This document shows positions 7,482-30,864 of a stretch of 64,000 nucleotides of DNA, one piece after another. Numbering within the stretch: the first letter of the stretch is position 1; each line of letters begins with the position of its first letter. Source of the stretch: Hymenobacter sp. 15J16-1T3B (GTDB lineage Bacteria; Bacteroidota; Bacteroidia; Cytophagales; Hymenobacteraceae); contig NZ_JAJFAV010000004.1 of assembly GCF_020711235.1 (NCBI RefSeq), positions 1 to 64,000 of the forward strand, written 5' to 3'. A program made the position numbers and the translations under genes. Below the pieces are notes generated by a model. The model worked only from the letters and a program-made list of their open reading frames with translations. It was not told the origin of the DNA and ran no database searches.

Positions 7482-7633
7482 GGCGTCAAGATAGGGGCCG
7501 GGGCGCAGTGCGGGCAGGAGCGGGGGCTCGGACCAGCTGCTCGGCCCCGGGAATGGGAAGCGGAGGGCCGCCTCAGCCGGCAGCCGCGGGGAAGTTTTTT
7601 TCGGGGCGCAGTTGTGAAACCGGAAAAGTTGTG

Positions 7634-7652
7634 AAACTTTGCAGCACAAAGT
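7634..7652. promoter_or_regulatory. Operator-like palindrome, site 1 (overlaps -7 box)
   Basis: ACTTTG (7636-7641), five bases CAGCA, CAAAGT (7647-7652): perfect 6-bp arms. It ends nine bases before the ATG at 7662. The preceding AAACTTTG resembles the Bacteroidota -7 box TAnnTTTG, and a TTG at 7612-7614 sits 19 bases upstream, right for a -33 element. The decamer GTTGTGAAAC occurs twice just here (7611-7620 and 7628-7637). The same palindrome with the same spacing occurs at 8789 and 9216. Confidence 0.65.
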
Positions 7653-7661
7653 GCTCTGTAT

Positions 7662-8378
7662 ATGAAGCCAGCCGTCGACCCATTAGCCCAGCTTGCCGAA
7701 ATCCGCACCATCATGGAGCGCTCCTCGCGCTTCATTTCCCTGAGCGGGCTGTCGGGGGTAGGGGCGGGGGTGGTGGCGCTGGCCGGGGCCGGTTTTGGGC
7801 ACTGGTATTTGCACACGCAGTTTGCGGGCCCGGCCCGCACCAACCCATACGAGGCCGCACCCGCCGGTGGCACCTTCGGCAATTCCTCAGGGTTTGTGCA
7901 GCTGATGGAAGGCTCGGCCGACGCCCGGCTGGCCACGCTGCCCTTTTTGCTGGCGCTGGCCCTGGGCATCATCGTGCTGGCCGGGCTGGTGGCGGTGTAC
8001 TTCACCCAGCGCCGCTCGCGCAGCACCGGCCGCTCGCTCTGGGACCCGGTGGTGCGCCGCCTGTTCTGGAGCATGGCCATTCCGCTGGTGGCCGGCGGCC
8101 TGTTTTGCCTGAAGCTCTACCTGCACGGGGCCGCCGGGCTGGTGGTGCCGGCCATGCTGCTGTTCTACGGCCTGGCCCTGCTGAACGCCAGCAAGTACAC
8201 CCTGGCCGAAATTCGGCTGCTGGGCCTTTCCGAACTGGTGGTGGGGCTGGTGGCCATGCTGTTTCCCAACTGGGCCTTCCTGTTTTTCGCCATCGGCTTC
8301 GGACTCTGCCACATCGGCTACGGGCTGCTGATGTACAACCGCTACGAACGGCAGGACAACGCGGCCCCGGCCGCCTGA
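7662..8378 (+). CDS. Five-helix membrane protein of unknown function
   Basis: Polytopic membrane protein of 238 aa. A short cytoplasmic N-terminus (AQLAEIRTIMERSSRF) leads to a first hydrophobic helix at about residues 26-47, a periplasmic or loop segment of about 40 residues rich in Ala, Thr and Pro, and four more helices between about 87 and 228. The C-terminus (YNRYERQDNAAPAA) is polar. No catalytic motif is visible and I do not recognise a named family. It is the first gene after operator site 1 and lies 95 bp upstream of the winged-helix regulator, so it is probably controlled by that regulator. The ATG is fixed by the nine-base distance to the palindrome, shared with two other genes nearby. 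Confidence 0.8.
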   Translation: MKPAVDPLAQLAEIRTIMERSSRFISLSGLSGVGAGVVALAGAGFGHWYLHTQFAGPARTNPYEAAPAGGTFGNSSGFVQLMEGSADARLATLPFLLALALGIIVLAGLVAVYFTQRRSRSTGRSLWDPVVRRLFWSMAIPLVAGGLFCLKLYLHGAAGLVVPAMLLFYGLALLNASKYTLAEIRLLGLSELVVGLVAMLFPNWAFLFFAIGFGLCHIGYGLLMYNRYERQDNAAPAA

Positions 8379-8473
8379 CCGTGCCGCCCAACCCGGCCGC
8401 GGGTGTTACCTTCGCGCCCCGGCCGCTTTAGCCCCACTGCCGACTTCCGCCCGCCGGGCCGCTTCTCTTCCCC

Positions 8474-8773
8474 GTGAAACACGCCATCCACCAGCTCAAC
8501 AAAGCCTTCGACCACCGCGTGCGGCTGGGCGTGATGGCCGTGCTCATGGCCAACGAGGAGGTGAGTTTCGGCGACCTGAAAGAAACCCTGGACCTGACCG
8601 ACGGCAACCTCGCCAGCCACGCCGCCGCCCTGGAAAAAGCCGGCTACATCCAAGTCAACAAGCAGTTCATCGGCAAGAAGCCCAACACCACTTTCACAGC
8701 TACCAAGGAAGGCCGCCAAGCATTCCAGGAGCACCTCGACACCCTCGAAAAACTGCTGCGCCGCGACGGGTAA
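8474..8773 (+). CDS. Winged-helix transcriptional regulator (HTH_34 / ArsR-like)
   Basis: Small DNA-binding protein of 99 aa made of one winged-helix domain. Visible elements: helix 1 HQLNKAFDHRVRLGVMAVLM, helix-turn-helix FGDLKETLDLTDGNLASHAAALEKAGYI (in two parts: FGDLKETLDLTDG and NLASHAAALEKAGYI), and the wing VNKQFIGKKPNTTFTATKEGR. The length and the DGNLASH recognition helix match the MarR/ArsR-like single-domain regulators called HTH_34. There is no effector domain, so its signal is unknown. Start is GTG at 8474; no ATG fits the fold. It stands between genes that carry the ACTTTG-N5-CAAAG palindrome directly before their starts, so it is the obvious candidate to bind it (inference). 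Confidence 0.9.
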   Translation: MKHAIHQLNKAFDHRVRLGVMAVLMANEEVSFGDLKETLDLTDGNLASHAAALEKAGYIQVNKQFIGKKPNTTFTATKEGRQAFQEHLDTLEKLLRRDG

Positions 8774-8786
8774 TTTTTTTGCCGAC

Positions 8787-8805
8787 AAACTTTGAAATAC
8801 AAAGC
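8787..8805. promoter_or_regulatory. Operator-like palindrome, site 2
   Basis: ACTTTG (8789-8794), spacer AAATA, CAAAGC (8800-8805); 5-bp perfect arms CTTTG/CAAAG. Ends nine bases before the ATG at 8815, exactly as at sites 1 and 3. The sequence from the T-run at 8774 to the start codon is nearly the same as before the gene at 9242. AAACTTTG could serve as a -7 box. Confidence 0.65.
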
Positions 8806-8814
8806 TCTTTTAAA

Positions 8815-9189
8815 ATGAGTATTCTGCGGTACGAGAAGCCCGAATGGGAGCTGCCTGATTGGGAGTTGCCGGCGGTAATCGATGCGTTGCTGGCCTTGAT
8901 TGCCTTGGTCGGCGGGGCTGCTGTTCTGGCGCTGCAGGGCCTAGGGCTCATGTTCGTCGCCGAAACCCTGCCGGCCAGGGGGCTGGGAGTGGCGTTGTTC
9001 CTCGTGGTGGTGCTGGGCGGCCCGCTGGCCATCGGAGCTTGGGTAGTGCGGCCCATGTGGCTGCGGTGCCGCCATGGTTTTTCGCTTGGCGCCTTGTGCA
9101 TGTTGCTGCTGGGCAGCACGGCGCTGCTGCTGTGGCTCGGCGCAATCGGCTGGGTGGGCGCCTTGCTGGTCAACGGGGCTACCTTCTAG
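8815..9189 (+). CDS. Small membrane protein, function unknown
   Basis: Membrane protein of 124 aa starting MSILRYEKPEW. A Glu/Trp/Pro-rich N-terminus (EKPEWELPDWELP) is followed by three hydrophobic helices (about residues 20-47, 52-78, 90-120). No enzymatic motif and no family recognised. A longer reading frame begins at 8779, but its extra residues would be encoded by the palindrome itself, and the nine-base spacing seen at three genes supports the ATG at 8815. It lies 41 bp after the winged-helix regulator and 52 bp before the DUF4173-type gene, each with its own copy of the palindrome. Confidence 0.78.
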   Translation: MSILRYEKPEWELPDWELPAVIDALLALIALVGGAAVLALQGLGLMFVAETLPARGLGVALFLVVVLGGPLAIGAWVVRPMWLRCRHGFSLGALCMLLLGSTALLLWLGAIGWVGALLVNGATF

Positions 9190-9213
9190 TAGCAGACGTC
9201 TCTTTTTGTCTAC

Positions 9214-9232
9214 AAACTTTGAAATACAAAGC
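9214..9232. promoter_or_regulatory. Operator-like palindrome, site 3
   Basis: ACTTTG (9216-9221), spacer AAATA, CAAAGC (9227-9232). The core is identical to site 2 over 17 bases, and it too ends nine bases before its ATG (9242). Upstream bases CTTTTTGTCTACAA mirror those of site 2. Confidence 0.65.
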
Positions 9233-9241
9233 ACTTTAAAC

Positions 9242-10903
9242 ATGCAAGCTCTACCTCTTTTTACCCCCAGCACGGCTCGGGCCGAAGAAGCGCCCTACGC
9301 GGCGCCGCTGTGGCGCCCCGCACAGCTGGTCCTGACCACCACCCAGAAATGGCTGCTGCCGCTGGGCGTTGTGGCCTTCGACGTGCTGTTCTGGCAGCAG
9401 GGGCGGGGCCTGAACCTGGCCCTCTTCACCCTGCTGGCGGTGGCCGCGCTGCTGGCGGGGCAGCCCCGCGCCGCTTGGCGCTCCGGGTATTTTCGCCTGA
9501 GCCTGGTGGGCGCGCTGGTCAGCTGCGGGGCCGTGACTTGGTACGGCTCGTTCACTGCCGGCTGGGCCTGCATCGGCTCCCTGCTGATGCTGTGGGGCTA
9601 CGCCAACCAGCCCTTGCTCAAGCAAGCCTCGCTGGCGCTGCTGACGGGCCTGGGCGCGGCCGCGCAGGTGGTGCTGGGCCTGCCTGCCCTGCTGCTGCGC
9701 GCCCTGCCCAGCCGCGACACCAAAGCCGGCCGCGTGGGCTGGTACGGACGGCTGCTGCTGGTGCCGGTGCTGATTCTGGGTGTGTTTCACATGCTGTTCG
9801 TGCTGGCCAACCCGCGCTACCGCCAGCTGACCGACCGGGCCTGGGCGGCGCTGGGCGAGTGGCTGGGGCAGTTCTTCGAGCTGTTGTCGTTGGGCCACCT
9901 GATCTTCTTGGTGCTGGGCCTGGCGGTGACGGCCGCGGTGCTGCTGCGGGTGCCGCTGCCGGGGCTGGCGCAGTGGGAAGCCGGGTTTGGCGAGGTGGTG
10001 CGCCGCCGCCGCGACGGGGTAGCGTCCTTCAGCGTGCGGCGCCCTGACTTCCGCCGCCGCGACTTCCGCACGGCCGACCTGCGCAAGGAGTACCTGGCGG
10101 CCCTGGCCGTGTTCGGGCTGGTCAACGTGCTGCTGCTGGCCGTCAACGTCATCGACATCAGCTGGATCTGGATTGACTTTCGCCCCGAGCCGGGCTTCGA
10201 CCTGGCGCAGTTCGTGCACGAGGGCACCTACGTGCTCATCTTCAGCATCCTGCTGGCCATGGGCATCGTGCTCTGGTTTTTCCGCCGCAACCTCAACTTT
10301 TACCAGCCGGGCCTGCCCGTGCTGCGCTGGGGCGCCACGGTGTGGGTGCTGCAAAACGCGGTGCTGGCCGTGTCGGTGGGCCTGCGCAACTACCACTATA
10401 TCACGCGTATGGGCCTGGCCTACAAGCGCATCGGGGTGTGCTTTTTCCTGCTGCTGACGCTGTTCGGGCTCGTTACCATCCTGCTCAAAATCTGGCAGCG
10501 CCGCTCGGCTTTCTCGCTGGTGCGCCTCAACAGCGTGGCTGCCTACTTGGTGCTGCTCGCGCTGGCCCTGGGCAACTGGGAAGTCTGGATTGTGCGCTAC
10601 AACCTTACCGTGGGCTTTCAGCAGGTCGACTACGGCTTCCTGCTCGACCTGCCGGGCCGGGTGCTGCCCGCGCTGGTCAAGCACCGCGCCATCCTGAACC
10701 GCACCAAGCACATCACCCGCGACGCCGGCGGCGTCTACAGCCTCTATGAGGAAGTCAGCGCGGCCACGGCCCAGCGCATGCTCGACGAGCGGGTGCGCCG
10801 CTGGCAGCAGCGCTACGCGGCCGAGGCCAGCTGGCAGGACTGGAACTACATGGACTGGCAGGCGCACCAGCAGCTGCCGACGGCCGCGCCGGCCGGGCGC
10901 TAG
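9242..10903 (+). CDS. Large polytopic membrane protein, DUF4173/DUF4153-like
   Basis: Inner-membrane protein of 553 aa with about twelve hydrophobic helices spread over the whole length and a hydrophilic C-terminal tail (about residues 495-553) rich in Arg, Gln and Trp. The central pattern, with ITRMGLAYKRIGV and the segment around NYHYITRMG, matches the DUF4173 group often found in Bacteroidota next to a small winged-helix regulator. The function is unknown. A frame extending upstream to 9074 overlaps the previous gene and the palindrome; the ATG at 9242, nine bases after site 3, is the credible start. The Coq4-like gene follows 25 bp later, so the block downstream is probably one operon. 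Confidence 0.82.
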   Translation: MQALPLFTPSTARAEEAPYAAPLWRPAQLVLTTTQKWLLPLGVVAFDVLFWQQGRGLNLALFTLLAVAALLAGQPRAAWRSGYFRLSLVGALVSCGAVTWYGSFTAGWACIGSLLMLWGYANQPLLKQASLALLTGLGAAAQVVLGLPALLLRALPSRDTKAGRVGWYGRLLLVPVLILGVFHMLFVLANPRYRQLTDRAWAALGEWLGQFFELLSLGHLIFLVLGLAVTAAVLLRVPLPGLAQWEAGFGEVVRRRRDGVASFSVRRPDFRRRDFRTADLRKEYLAALAVFGLVNVLLLAVNVIDISWIWIDFRPEPGFDLAQFVHEGTYVLIFSILLAMGIVLWFFRRNLNFYQPGLPVLRWGATVWVLQNAVLAVSVGLRNYHYITRMGLAYKRIGVCFFLLLTLFGLVTILLKIWQRRSAFSLVRLNSVAAYLVLLALALGNWEVWIVRYNLTVGFQQVDYGFLLDLPGRVLPALVKHRAILNRTKHITRDAGGVYSLYEEVSAATAQRMLDERVRRWQQRYAAEASWQDWNYMDWQAHQQLPTAAPAGR

Positions 10904-10928: not shown

Positions 10929-11429
10929 ATGATGACCGTGTTGCATACCGCTTATAGTGCCTACCAGCGCCTGATTTGCCAGCTTGTGGCCGGGGTGTTT
11001 ACCGCCGTGCTGATTCCGCTGAGCTGGCGCCTGCACGGGCCGCAGGGCGTGGCCGAGCAGCTACGGTTTCTGCAAGACCTGCCTGGCGGCACCCTGGGCC
11101 GCGCCGTGGCCGATTGCCTGCAAGCGCATGCGCTGGAGCTCATTCCCGGCTACGAGGACCACGACCTCAAGCACGTGCTGCTGGGCTACGCCATGACGCC
11201 CGAAGACGAGCTCAAACTGAAGGCTTTTGCCCTCGGCAACGGCGACTACACTCCTCTCACGTTGGCGCTGGTGGGCACGGGCCTGCTGCTGCCCGCCCTC
11301 TGGCCCGAGTTGCGCGCCCACTACCGCCGCGGCCGCCGTGTGCCGCCCGGCGTGTACCGCTGGCGCCTGCGCGACTACGCAACCCGCGACTTGGCCGCGC
11401 TGCGCCGGGAAATCGGGCTGGCGGCCTGA
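10929..11429 (+). CDS. Coq4-like protein
   Basis: Protein of 166 aa with the metal-site signature of the Coq4 family: H78-D79-x-x-H82, eleven residues, then E94 (HDLKHVLLGYAMTPEDE). Coq4 is a Zn-binding protein of ubiquinone synthesis, tied to removal of the ring carboxyl group. Here a hydrophobic helix (about residues 16-31) precedes the motif and another (TLALVGTGLLLPALW) follows it, so membrane association is likely. The C-terminus contains VPPGVYRWRLRDY and basic helices. Bacteroidota normally make menaquinone and not ubiquinone, so the substrate is open. It lies in a run of small membrane-protein genes that includes a ferritin-like diiron protein. Confidence 0.72.
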   Translation: MMTVLHTAYSAYQRLICQLVAGVFTAVLIPLSWRLHGPQGVAEQLRFLQDLPGGTLGRAVADCLQAHALELIPGYEDHDLKHVLLGYAMTPEDELKLKAFALGNGDYTPLTLALVGTGLLLPALWPELRAHYRRGRRVPPGVYRWRLRDYATRDLAALRREIGLAA

Positions 11430-29388: not shown

Positions 29389-30864
29389 CTATTCAGAAAG
29401 CGTTTCGGGCGCCGCGCTGTCGTACCAGCGGATGCGGCGCGAGAGGAACATCACAATGCCGAGCACCAGCAGCAGGCCCAGGCTACCAATCAGCAGGGCG
29501 TAATCCTGCAACTGAATGACGACGAACACGAAGCCGTAAATGAGCGTGAGCACGCCGGCCGTAATCAGCACCAAGCGCCGCTGCCGGAACACCGCCGCGG
29601 CGTAGGCCGTGACCAGCCCGATGATGGCGGCGCCCGCCAAGCCATAAGCCGCATTGAAGGGCATATGTTCCGACAAAGCTAGCAGCAACACGTAAAAAAT
29701 TACCAACGCCAGCCCCACTAAGATATACTGAAACGGGTGAATGCGCCGCCGGTTGAGCACTTCCACGAAAAAGAAAATCAGGAAGGTGAGCGTGAGCGGC
29801 AGCAGCGCGTACTTGGCGGCACGCATGGTTTTCTGGTATTCATTGACGGGCACCAGCAGCCGCACGCCGAACGTGGAGCCGTTCACGTTGGGCTGAAACG
29901 CGGCCGTGCGCCAGCGCTGCGGGTAGTTGCGGTTCAGGTGCAGCACCCGCCAATCGGCCGTGAACTGCTGGGCCGTAACCTGCCGCTGGGCGGGCAAAAA
30001 CGCGCCGATAAAGCTCGGGTCGGGCCAGGGCGCGGCGAGACGGGCGGTGGTTTGGCGGCCCAGCGGCGCCAGCAGCAGGCCGGTGCTCCCGTTCAGGTCC
30101 AGCTCGAAGCTGAAGGTGTGGCGCCCGACCAGCGCGGCGGCGTTGGGCACCGGCACCGGGGCGCTCAGGCCGCTGTTGTTGCTGCCGTCCTCCGCGGGCA
30201 CCTCGTCGGTGCCCTGAAACTTGGAGTAGCGCTGCCGCTCGTTGCGCACGGCGGTTTCGTCGGAGGCCACGCCGGGGGGCGTGCCCACGGGCAGCAGCTG
30301 CGGCGAGGGCACGCCCGGCTCGAAACCGCGCGGCTGCCCGTCCCAGCTCAGGCGCAGGCTGTTGCGGATGCCTTTCAGGTCGGAAATGCCGAGGGCCACG
30401 AAGGCTTCGGCCCAGTGTATATCAGCCGGGTCCAGGTCGAGGTCGGCCAGGGAGGCGGTTTGAAACACGCCGCGCACCCGAAGCCGGGCCCGGTACACCA
30501 CCGCCTCGTAGATGCCGCGGTGCCGCCGCTCGGGCTCCAGCTGCCCGGTGGTGGCGAGGCTGTCGGGCAAGAAGCAGAGGTATTCGGTGGTGCGCTGCGG
30601 GCGGCCTTTTTCGTCTTGGCTGCGGGCCGTGTAGGGCAGGGCCAGCACGGGCCCGAGCACCAGCTGCGGCCCGCCCCACTTGCCGCTGATTTCGCGGGTG
30701 GCGGCATCCCGGTTTTCGGCGCGCTCGGTTATCAGGCTTTCCACCATCGTCGACGGAATCAGCAGCAGGAGCAGCAGAAAGCCGATGGAGAGCAGCTTGA
30801 TGGTAATCGAGTTGCGCAGCCAGGCGTTGAGCCGATCAACCAAGGAGACGGGGGAAGTAGACAT
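29389..30864 (-). CDS. creD: Cell envelope integrity protein CreD
   Basis: Inner-membrane protein of 491 aa. The N-terminal helix (ITIKLLSIGFLLLLLLIP) is followed by a large periplasmic domain (about 55-330) with the CreD signatures GPVLALPYTA and FLPDSL, and five to six closely spaced helices at the C-terminus (about 340-475). CreD of E. coli changes envelope resistance (colicin E2 tolerance); its molecular action is unknown. The usual partner two-component system CreBC is not in this window. The pseudouridine synthase gene follows 12 bp later. Confidence 0.92.
   Translation of the reverse strand: MSTSPVSLVDRLNAWLRNSITIKLLSIGFLLLLLLIPSTMVESLITERAENRDAATREISGKWGGPQLVLGPVLALPYTARSQDEKGRPQRTTEYLCFLPDSLATTGQLEPERRHRGIYEAVVYRARLRVRGVFQTASLADLDLDPADIHWAEAFVALGISDLKGIRNSLRLSWDGQPRGFEPGVPSPQLLPVGTPPGVASDETAVRNERQRYSKFQGTDEVPAEDGSNNSGLSAPVPVPNAAALVGRHTFSFELDLNGSTGLLLAPLGRQTTARLAAPWPDPSFIGAFLPAQRQVTAQQFTADWRVLHLNRNYPQRWRTAAFQPNVNGSTFGVRLLVPVNEYQKTMRAAKYALLPLTLTFLIFFFVEVLNRRRIHPFQYILVGLALVIFYVLLLALSEHMPFNAAYGLAGAAIIGLVTAYAAAVFRQRRLVLITAGVLTLIYGFVFVVIQLQDYALLIGSLGLLLVLGIVMFLSRRIRWYDSAAPETLSE

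Follow-up and report, generated by a model that had tools for sequence, protein, structure and literature searches.

Several described bacterial systems pair a small repressor with a membrane protein, or rely on a palindromic operator of similar build. As reported in the available parts of the respective papers, the Bacillus subtilis autorepressor SdpR is encoded in one operon with the polytopic membrane protein SdpI, which sequesters SdpR once the ligand arrives (PMC1626106). HAAS-PadR dyads, found near phage-shock genes, combine a winged helix-turn-helix (wHTH) protein with a membrane-linked signalling protein, and have been proposed to act as a signal pair (PMC11237479). LexA-like SOS repressors, widespread in the Bacteroidetes, have N5-spaced palindromes, CTAA-N5-TTAG and GGA-N5-TCC (PMC8565304). 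Here we consider a 64,000-nucleotide (nt) stretch of the Hymenobacter sp. 15J16-1T3B genome (contig NZ_JAJFAV010000004.1, positions 1 to 64,000; hereafter the window), in which the palindrome CTTTG-N5-CAAAG precedes three genes grouped around a small gene for an HTH_34 winged-helix regulator.

Taken as a whole, and with a probability of about 0.82, the locus is best read as an autoregulatory circuit: an HTH_34 repressor of the MarR fold, for which the palindrome would be the operator and a co-encoded membrane protein the likely signal input. Comparison across genomes strongly supports the identity of the operator and its link both to one HTH_34 subfamily and to the membrane partner; it likewise points to overlap with promoters and to target families shared across species. 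From these we infer binding itself, repression rather than activation, a role for the third element of the operator, sensing at the membrane, and an envelope theme among the targets.

A pattern search of the window finds ACTTTG-N5-CAAAG (ACTTTGNNNNNCAAAG) on the forward strand at 7636-7651, 8789-8804, and 9216-9231, each copy ahead of a start codon as the first-pass annotation had reported. The gap from the end of each copy to its ATG (7662, 8815, and 9242) is exactly 10 bases; nine, the figure in that annotation, results only when the palindrome is taken to run to base 17. The pattern count, including the reverse reading of the first copy, is 4, against a shuffle mean of 0.08, and none of 100 shuffles reached 4. 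A weight matrix made from 161 sites in named relatives (below) finds these three places only in the 64 kb, at 40.3, 38.8, and 26.6 bits; the next match that is not a self-reverse scores 7.7 bits, and the top score over 10 mononucleotide shuffles is 16.4.

Across the whole genome (6.33 Mb) the short pattern gives 10 matches at 7 places, and the reversed pattern gives 1. The window-shuffle rate, scaled to 6.33 Mb, predicts about 8 short-pattern matches, so the raw count is not evidence by itself and was rejected as proof. What does count as evidence is the longer form of the motif and its placement. One-mismatch sites outside the locus (12 forward and 12 reverse; 3 and 3 for the control) were left out of the target list.

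The regulator gene (8474..8773, forward strand, GTG start) encodes 99 amino acids (aa). Its product scores 107.8 bits against the HTH_34 profile (PF13601; cut-off 27), which bears out the earlier assignment of a winged-helix regulator among these genes, and is the one HTH_34 protein in its genome above the family cut-off. The top match of its AlphaFold2 model (predicted local distance difference test, pLDDT, 93.2) among structures in the PDB is PH1061 (1ub9; E 2.3e-6, template-modelling score, TM, 0.86), and the OhrR-DNA complex 1z9c is also among the fold matches. The protein is predicted to adopt a winged-helix fold of the MarR/PH1061 type. Homologues are present in 120 of 120 sampled genomes of the family, the sole match in one of them (G096) being marginal.

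Upstream regions of HTH_34 loci in relatives were compared, as the annotation had proposed. The named loci are those of the 80 top-ranking matches to the regulator, out of at least 589, and take in Hymenobacter, Flavobacterium, Chryseobacterium, Gramella, Chitinophaga, and Pontibacter. An exact CTTTG-N5-CAAAG stands beside the regulator gene in 79 of the 80: upstream in 77, downstream in 74, and on both sides in 72. The downstream site falls within 400 nt past the regulator gene in 74 of the 80. At the one locus without an exact site, both customary positions carry a one-mismatch version. In all, the named loci contain 161 motifs in 921,571 bases. Two words served as controls: the string read backwards, which occurs twice; and the palindrome with each arm reversed in place, which does not occur.

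The full element is longer than the palindrome: CTTTG-N5-CAAAG-N2-CTTT, with an asymmetric third part. Read on sites picked by the palindrome alone, C at +17 and T at +18 are found in 100% of the 77 upstream and 74 downstream sites, T at +19 in 95-99%, and T at +20 in 83-93%. In the window, the three operators all lie on the forward strand: operator 1 (CTTTGCAGCACAAAG; 7637..7651; 26.6 bits); operator 2 (CTTTGAAATACAAAG; 8790..8804; 38.8 bits), with its third element CTTT at 8807-8810; and operator 3 (CTTTGAAATACAAAG; 9217..9231; 40.3 bits), with CTTT at 9234-9237. The long form gives 41 matches in the genus, spread over 8 of 8 genomes, and none in reverse. A 296-genome sample of the phylum includes 73 genomes of the class or closer; there the long form gives 136 matches, versus 6 for the reversed form.

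Motif and regulator also come and go together. Among those 73 genomes, the motif is present in 50 of the 57 with a strong HTH_34 match, and in none of the 16 with a weak match or none. Six of the seven motif-less genomes with a strong match were looked into (G386 was left out). One (G406) keeps the palindrome with an altered third element; two (G264 and G295) have one-mismatch sites instead; and three (G268, G347, and G355) encode, at the positions fetched, only HTH_34 proteins with a GNLS-type recognition helix and no membrane partner. A genome-wide search of G347 and G355 for the membrane partner found none at E<=1e-10.

The recognition helix itself draws a similar line. In a set of 174 distinct HTH_34 sequences, from which copies with short flanks or fewer than 75 aa were left out, an exact site lies near 139 of the 142 with a GNxA-type helix (mostly TDGNLASH) and near 1 of the 31 with a GNLS helix; the one further sequence is unclassified and has no site. 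The three GNxA-type misses sit beside one-mismatch operators, and their helices read TDGNLAGH (L238), TDGNLATH (L249), and TDGSLAGH (L252), the first and last counting as altered. It is possible that divergent helix and changed site in these three loci reflect co-change. On a FastTree tree, the presence and absence of the site require at least four changes. The earlier proposal that this regulator reads the palindrome is supported by such comparisons: sites in 79 of 80 loci, and the link to helix type. Other HTH_34 subfamilies, with the GNLS helix, occupy loci L071, L072, and most of L136-L165, nearly all of them motif-free.

The second constant companion is a conserved membrane protein of 238 aa (7662..8378, forward strand), the candidate partner of the regulator. 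A homologue lies upstream of the regulator gene in 80 of the 80 named loci, the amino-terminal signature EIRxxMERSSRFISLSGLSG is kept among homologues, and the site ends 8-24 nt before the membrane-protein start in 76 of the 80. Gene order suggests that the membrane-protein gene and the regulator share one transcript. The AlphaFold2 model of the protein is all helical (pLDDT 87.7). It has no match among PDB folds at E<=0.001; a PDB sequence search gave a single chance-level match (E 0.073); and a Pfam search gave no match above a cut-off and did not list DUF1700 (HAAS). In a sample of 149 genomes of the class, 50 encode the membrane protein, and 48 of these have the full motif; of the 99 others, 6 have it. 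In 44 of the 50 the motif flanks the membrane-protein gene on one side or both, and of 110 motif places 77 are no further than 3 kb from that gene. These counts indicate that partner, regulator, and motif travel together, in about one third of the sampled class genomes.

Where the operator falls relative to the promoter suggests how it might work. The annotation had placed the left arm of the palindrome within a -7-like box, so that binding would block transcription. Indeed, the box AAACTTTG (7634..7641, forward strand) contains the left arm of operator 1, and lies 19 nt after a TTG (7612..7614, forward strand), the probable -33 box of the upstream promoter. The placement is supported by the spacing in relatives: at 62 of the 77 upstream sites a TTG is found 18-21 nt ahead of the -7 box formed by the left arm (shifting the reading position by +7 or -8 leaves 8 and 0), and a T precedes the left-arm TTTG at the right place in 72 of the 77. 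A promoter map of F. psychrophilum, in the available part of its report, puts the box at -12 to -5 (PMC9723704), so the upstream operator would cover both the -7 box and the predicted start point. By position before the membrane-protein start (76 of 80) and by TTG spacing (62 of 77), the operator lies on the predicted promoter of the regulator's own operon.

A different arrangement is seen at the unlinked sites of the genus (23 sites, in 22 of 30 genus loci, those without the regulator). In 12 of the 23, the left arm takes the TTTG position of a -33 box, with a second TTTG at +26 to +29; at linked sites, a TTTG search over +22 to +31 found none at the 77 upstream sites and two at the 74 downstream sites. 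Both arrangements, on the -7 box and on the -33 box, fit repression. Downstream sites have another companion. Operator 2 is preceded at a fixed distance by a run of seven T residues (8774..8780, forward strand), and operator 3 by a run of five (9203..9207, forward strand) placed much like it; the T7 pattern was noted at the downstream sites of loci L166-L245. Equal distance to the ATG holds locally and is not kept in relatives, in which upstream sites lie 8-24 nt from the start and other sites lie further away. A mechanism based on constant ATG spacing was rejected.

These features suggest a general model. A dimer of the MarR-fold regulator would bind CTTTG-N5-CAAAG as one pair of arms, and the third CTTT may set orientation or take a further subunit. 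At operator 1, bound regulator would cover the -7 box and predicted start of the operon for the membrane protein and the regulator; lying on its own operon's promoter, the operator implies that the regulator would repress that operon. Operators 2 and 3 would similarly mediate repression of a 124-aa membrane protein and of a DUF4153 operon, and at unlinked sites in this genome the regulator would cover the -33 box of genes for an MPAB-type oxygenase, MSEP-CTERM, and uncharacterised proteins. A signal would free the dimer from its operators. The constancy of the membrane partner suggests, by analogy with SdpI/SdpR and with what has been proposed for HAAS-PadR pairs, that this signal passes through it; the presumably co-transcribed protein may tether the regulator to the membrane, or let it go upon envelope change.

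Several observations weigh against this model. The third element of operator 1 is degenerate (CTCT at 7654-7657), and the upstream site in the window shows AAACTTTG instead of TAnnTTTG; among relatives, exact TAnnTTTG occurs at just 30 of the 77 upstream and 14 of the 74 downstream sites. No downstream site (0 of 74) has a -33 TTG at the usual spacing, and an unbroken T7 run at -16 to -10, present at 66 of the 74 downstream versus 1 of the 77 upstream sites, is unexplained. Outside the class (223 genomes) the excess of the long form is much weaker, 42 matches versus 12 reversed. One GNLS-type protein, in locus L156 from another class of the phylum (G185), is the sole member of its type with a site, which lies 27 nt past the matched stretch. 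The membrane protein occurs in just 50 of the 149 sampled class genomes, and 6 of those 50 lack a strict full motif beside its gene. The class-wide association (P = 8.6e-30) ignores kinship; because the sequences are related, the genome counts are not independent. Finally, a CreD gene in the window (29389-30864, reverse strand; PF06123, 497.8 bits) has no site despite frequent targeting of CreD elsewhere. As a local target, CreD was rejected.

Alternatively, the HTH_34 protein could use the site to activate transcription, or could act in either direction depending on a signal. The family name does not fix the direction of control, and the sites in the -33 region (12 of the 23 unlinked genus sites) could serve an activator. 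Still, polymerase should be blocked by protein bound at the upstream sites, since these overlie the -7 box and the predicted start. Most autoregulated proteins of the MarR fold are, moreover, repressors. We consider this alternative unlikely.

Less likely still, another regulator or an alternative sigma factor could read the motif, with the HTH_34 protein a mere passenger in the operon. The motif does share TTTG with the Bacteroidota -7 box, and the third CTTT gives it a direction, as in a promoter element. Against this reader, the arms are palindromic; the site occupies two different promoter positions; the motif tracks the GNxA helix (139 of 142) rather than GNLS (1 of 31); and three divergent proteins have changed sites. 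The words of the Bacteroidetes LexA-like repressors, CTAA-N5-TTAG and GGA-N5-TCC in the available part of their description (PMC8565304), differ from it as well. That the palindrome works as RNA, in a leader hairpin or attenuator, is barely credible: CUUUG-N5-CAAAG could make a short stem near the start codon, but such a stem would comprise five to six base pairs, mostly A-U, and is not followed by a run of U; sites covering the -33 box would fall upstream of the transcript, and the conserved third CTTT lies outside the stem.

Besides its own operon, the predicted local targets of the regulator lie immediately downstream. Operator 2 precedes the gene for a small predicted membrane protein (8815..9189, forward strand; 124 aa, three hydrophobic stretches), for which Pfam and NCBIfam searches gave no match; of the 80 loci, only L166 has a homologue, and it too follows a site. 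Operator 3 precedes the gene for a polytopic membrane protein of 553 aa (9242..10903, forward strand), earlier labelled DUF4173, whose family is DUF4153 (PF13687, 110.4 bits); homologues lie behind a site in many Hymenobacter loci. A Coq4-like gene (10929..11429, forward strand; PF05019, E 0.0015, below cut-off) follows after 25 nt, a gap from which we judge that it is probably read together with the DUF4153 gene.

The annotation foresaw a small, self-contained regulon. Small it is, but not self-contained: the genome has four further sites outside the locus, and relatives too have unlinked sites. Site C6 faces a gene for 252 aa without a family match; C10, a gene with an MPAB oxygenase domain (57.3 bits); and C42, a gene for 183 aa without a family match. 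Site C19 (L013) is a perfect 17-bp palindrome between divergent genes, one for MSEP-CTERM (TIGR04286, 733 bits) and one for 139 aa. Four of these five genes have relatives near the regulator in other species. In Gillisia and Gramella loci, homologues of the C10 and C6 targets are found no more than about 5 kb from the regulator; an MSEP-CTERM homologue lies near it, with exosortase K, in Flavobacterium sp. 9AF; and C42 homologues stand behind a site in 12 of 13 BLAST matches. The 139-aa gene has no homologue among the 80 loci. A search of the Hymenobacter genome for exosortase K gave no match, but its control was silent as well. Without a common regulator, it would be difficult to account for the same families recurring both beside the regulator gene and away from it.

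Target families vary among the named loci. Downstream genes were scanned for 64 of the 80, each being the longest open reading frame near the site as picked by script: Coq4-like (12), CreD (9), DUF4153 (9), DUF1361 (5), radical SAM (3), DUF6688 (3), metallophosphoesterase (3), and MPAB (2). For three of the 64, the locus has no downstream site; the 16 omitted are mostly near-duplicates from Hymenobacter, the rest being a few genes poorly picked or from loci lacking that site. The reading of targets in the genus and class covers matches for which a locus was available; many matches had none. Loci L257 and L135, from another family of the class, have paired sites away from the regulator that precede a KFKDGDLIFQTSESKQCE...SKFSHCGIIY gene and a Coq4-like gene.

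Several target families are membrane proteins, which suggests an envelope theme. More tentatively, with the odds slightly against it, many Bacteroidota may share a signalling pair in which a membrane protein without a known fold senses the envelope and controls the HTH_34 repressor encoded in its operon, itself the regulator of a lineage-varying set of envelope genes. That set, put forward with the same reserve, would include CreD, DUF4153, exosortase K with MSEP-CTERM, Coq4-like proteins, MPAB oxygenase, and small membrane proteins.

Together, these results predict an operator for an HTH_34 subfamily and place its members, in many Bacteroidota, in a putative autoregulatory circuit with a membrane partner. 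Many genes of no known function are thereby grouped into one testable regulon, and its signal could be traced through whatever derepresses a single reporter.

How does this circuit relate to described ones? No paper on the HTH_34 family by name was found in the open-licence literature searched, so that source offers no operator, regulon, or partner to compare. The regulator is not mentioned in the available parts of the papers on F. psychrophilum transcription (PMC9723704), TamL (PMC12045153), or F. johnsoniae coevolution (PMC10197871). MarR-fold repressors that regulate themselves are a known kind of regulator; for this operator, partner, and regulon, no description was found in the same literature. 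By family, the regulator is a clear HTH_34 member (107.8 bits), and its model matches the fold of PH1061 from Pyrococcus horikoshii (1ub9; TM 0.86).

By arrangement, SdpR/SdpI is a close counterpart: like the putative autorepressor here, SdpR is encoded in one operon with a polytopic membrane protein. However, the regulator scores only 18.3 bits against the SdpR model NF033789 (cut-off 100), the membrane protein has no Pfam match above a cut-off, and at this locus and elsewhere the site is found at many further genes. HAAS-PadR dyads offer the same pairing, by gene order, of a stand-alone wHTH protein with a membrane protein, but against PadR (PF03551) the regulator scores 13.8 bits (cut-off 27), so the pair belongs to neither system. 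Finally, the LexA-like repressors share the N5-spaced palindrome and the wide spread in the phylum. They differ in protein family and in their SOS targets; the word at this locus is CTTTG-N5-CAAAG, and its likely reader is an HTH_34 protein.

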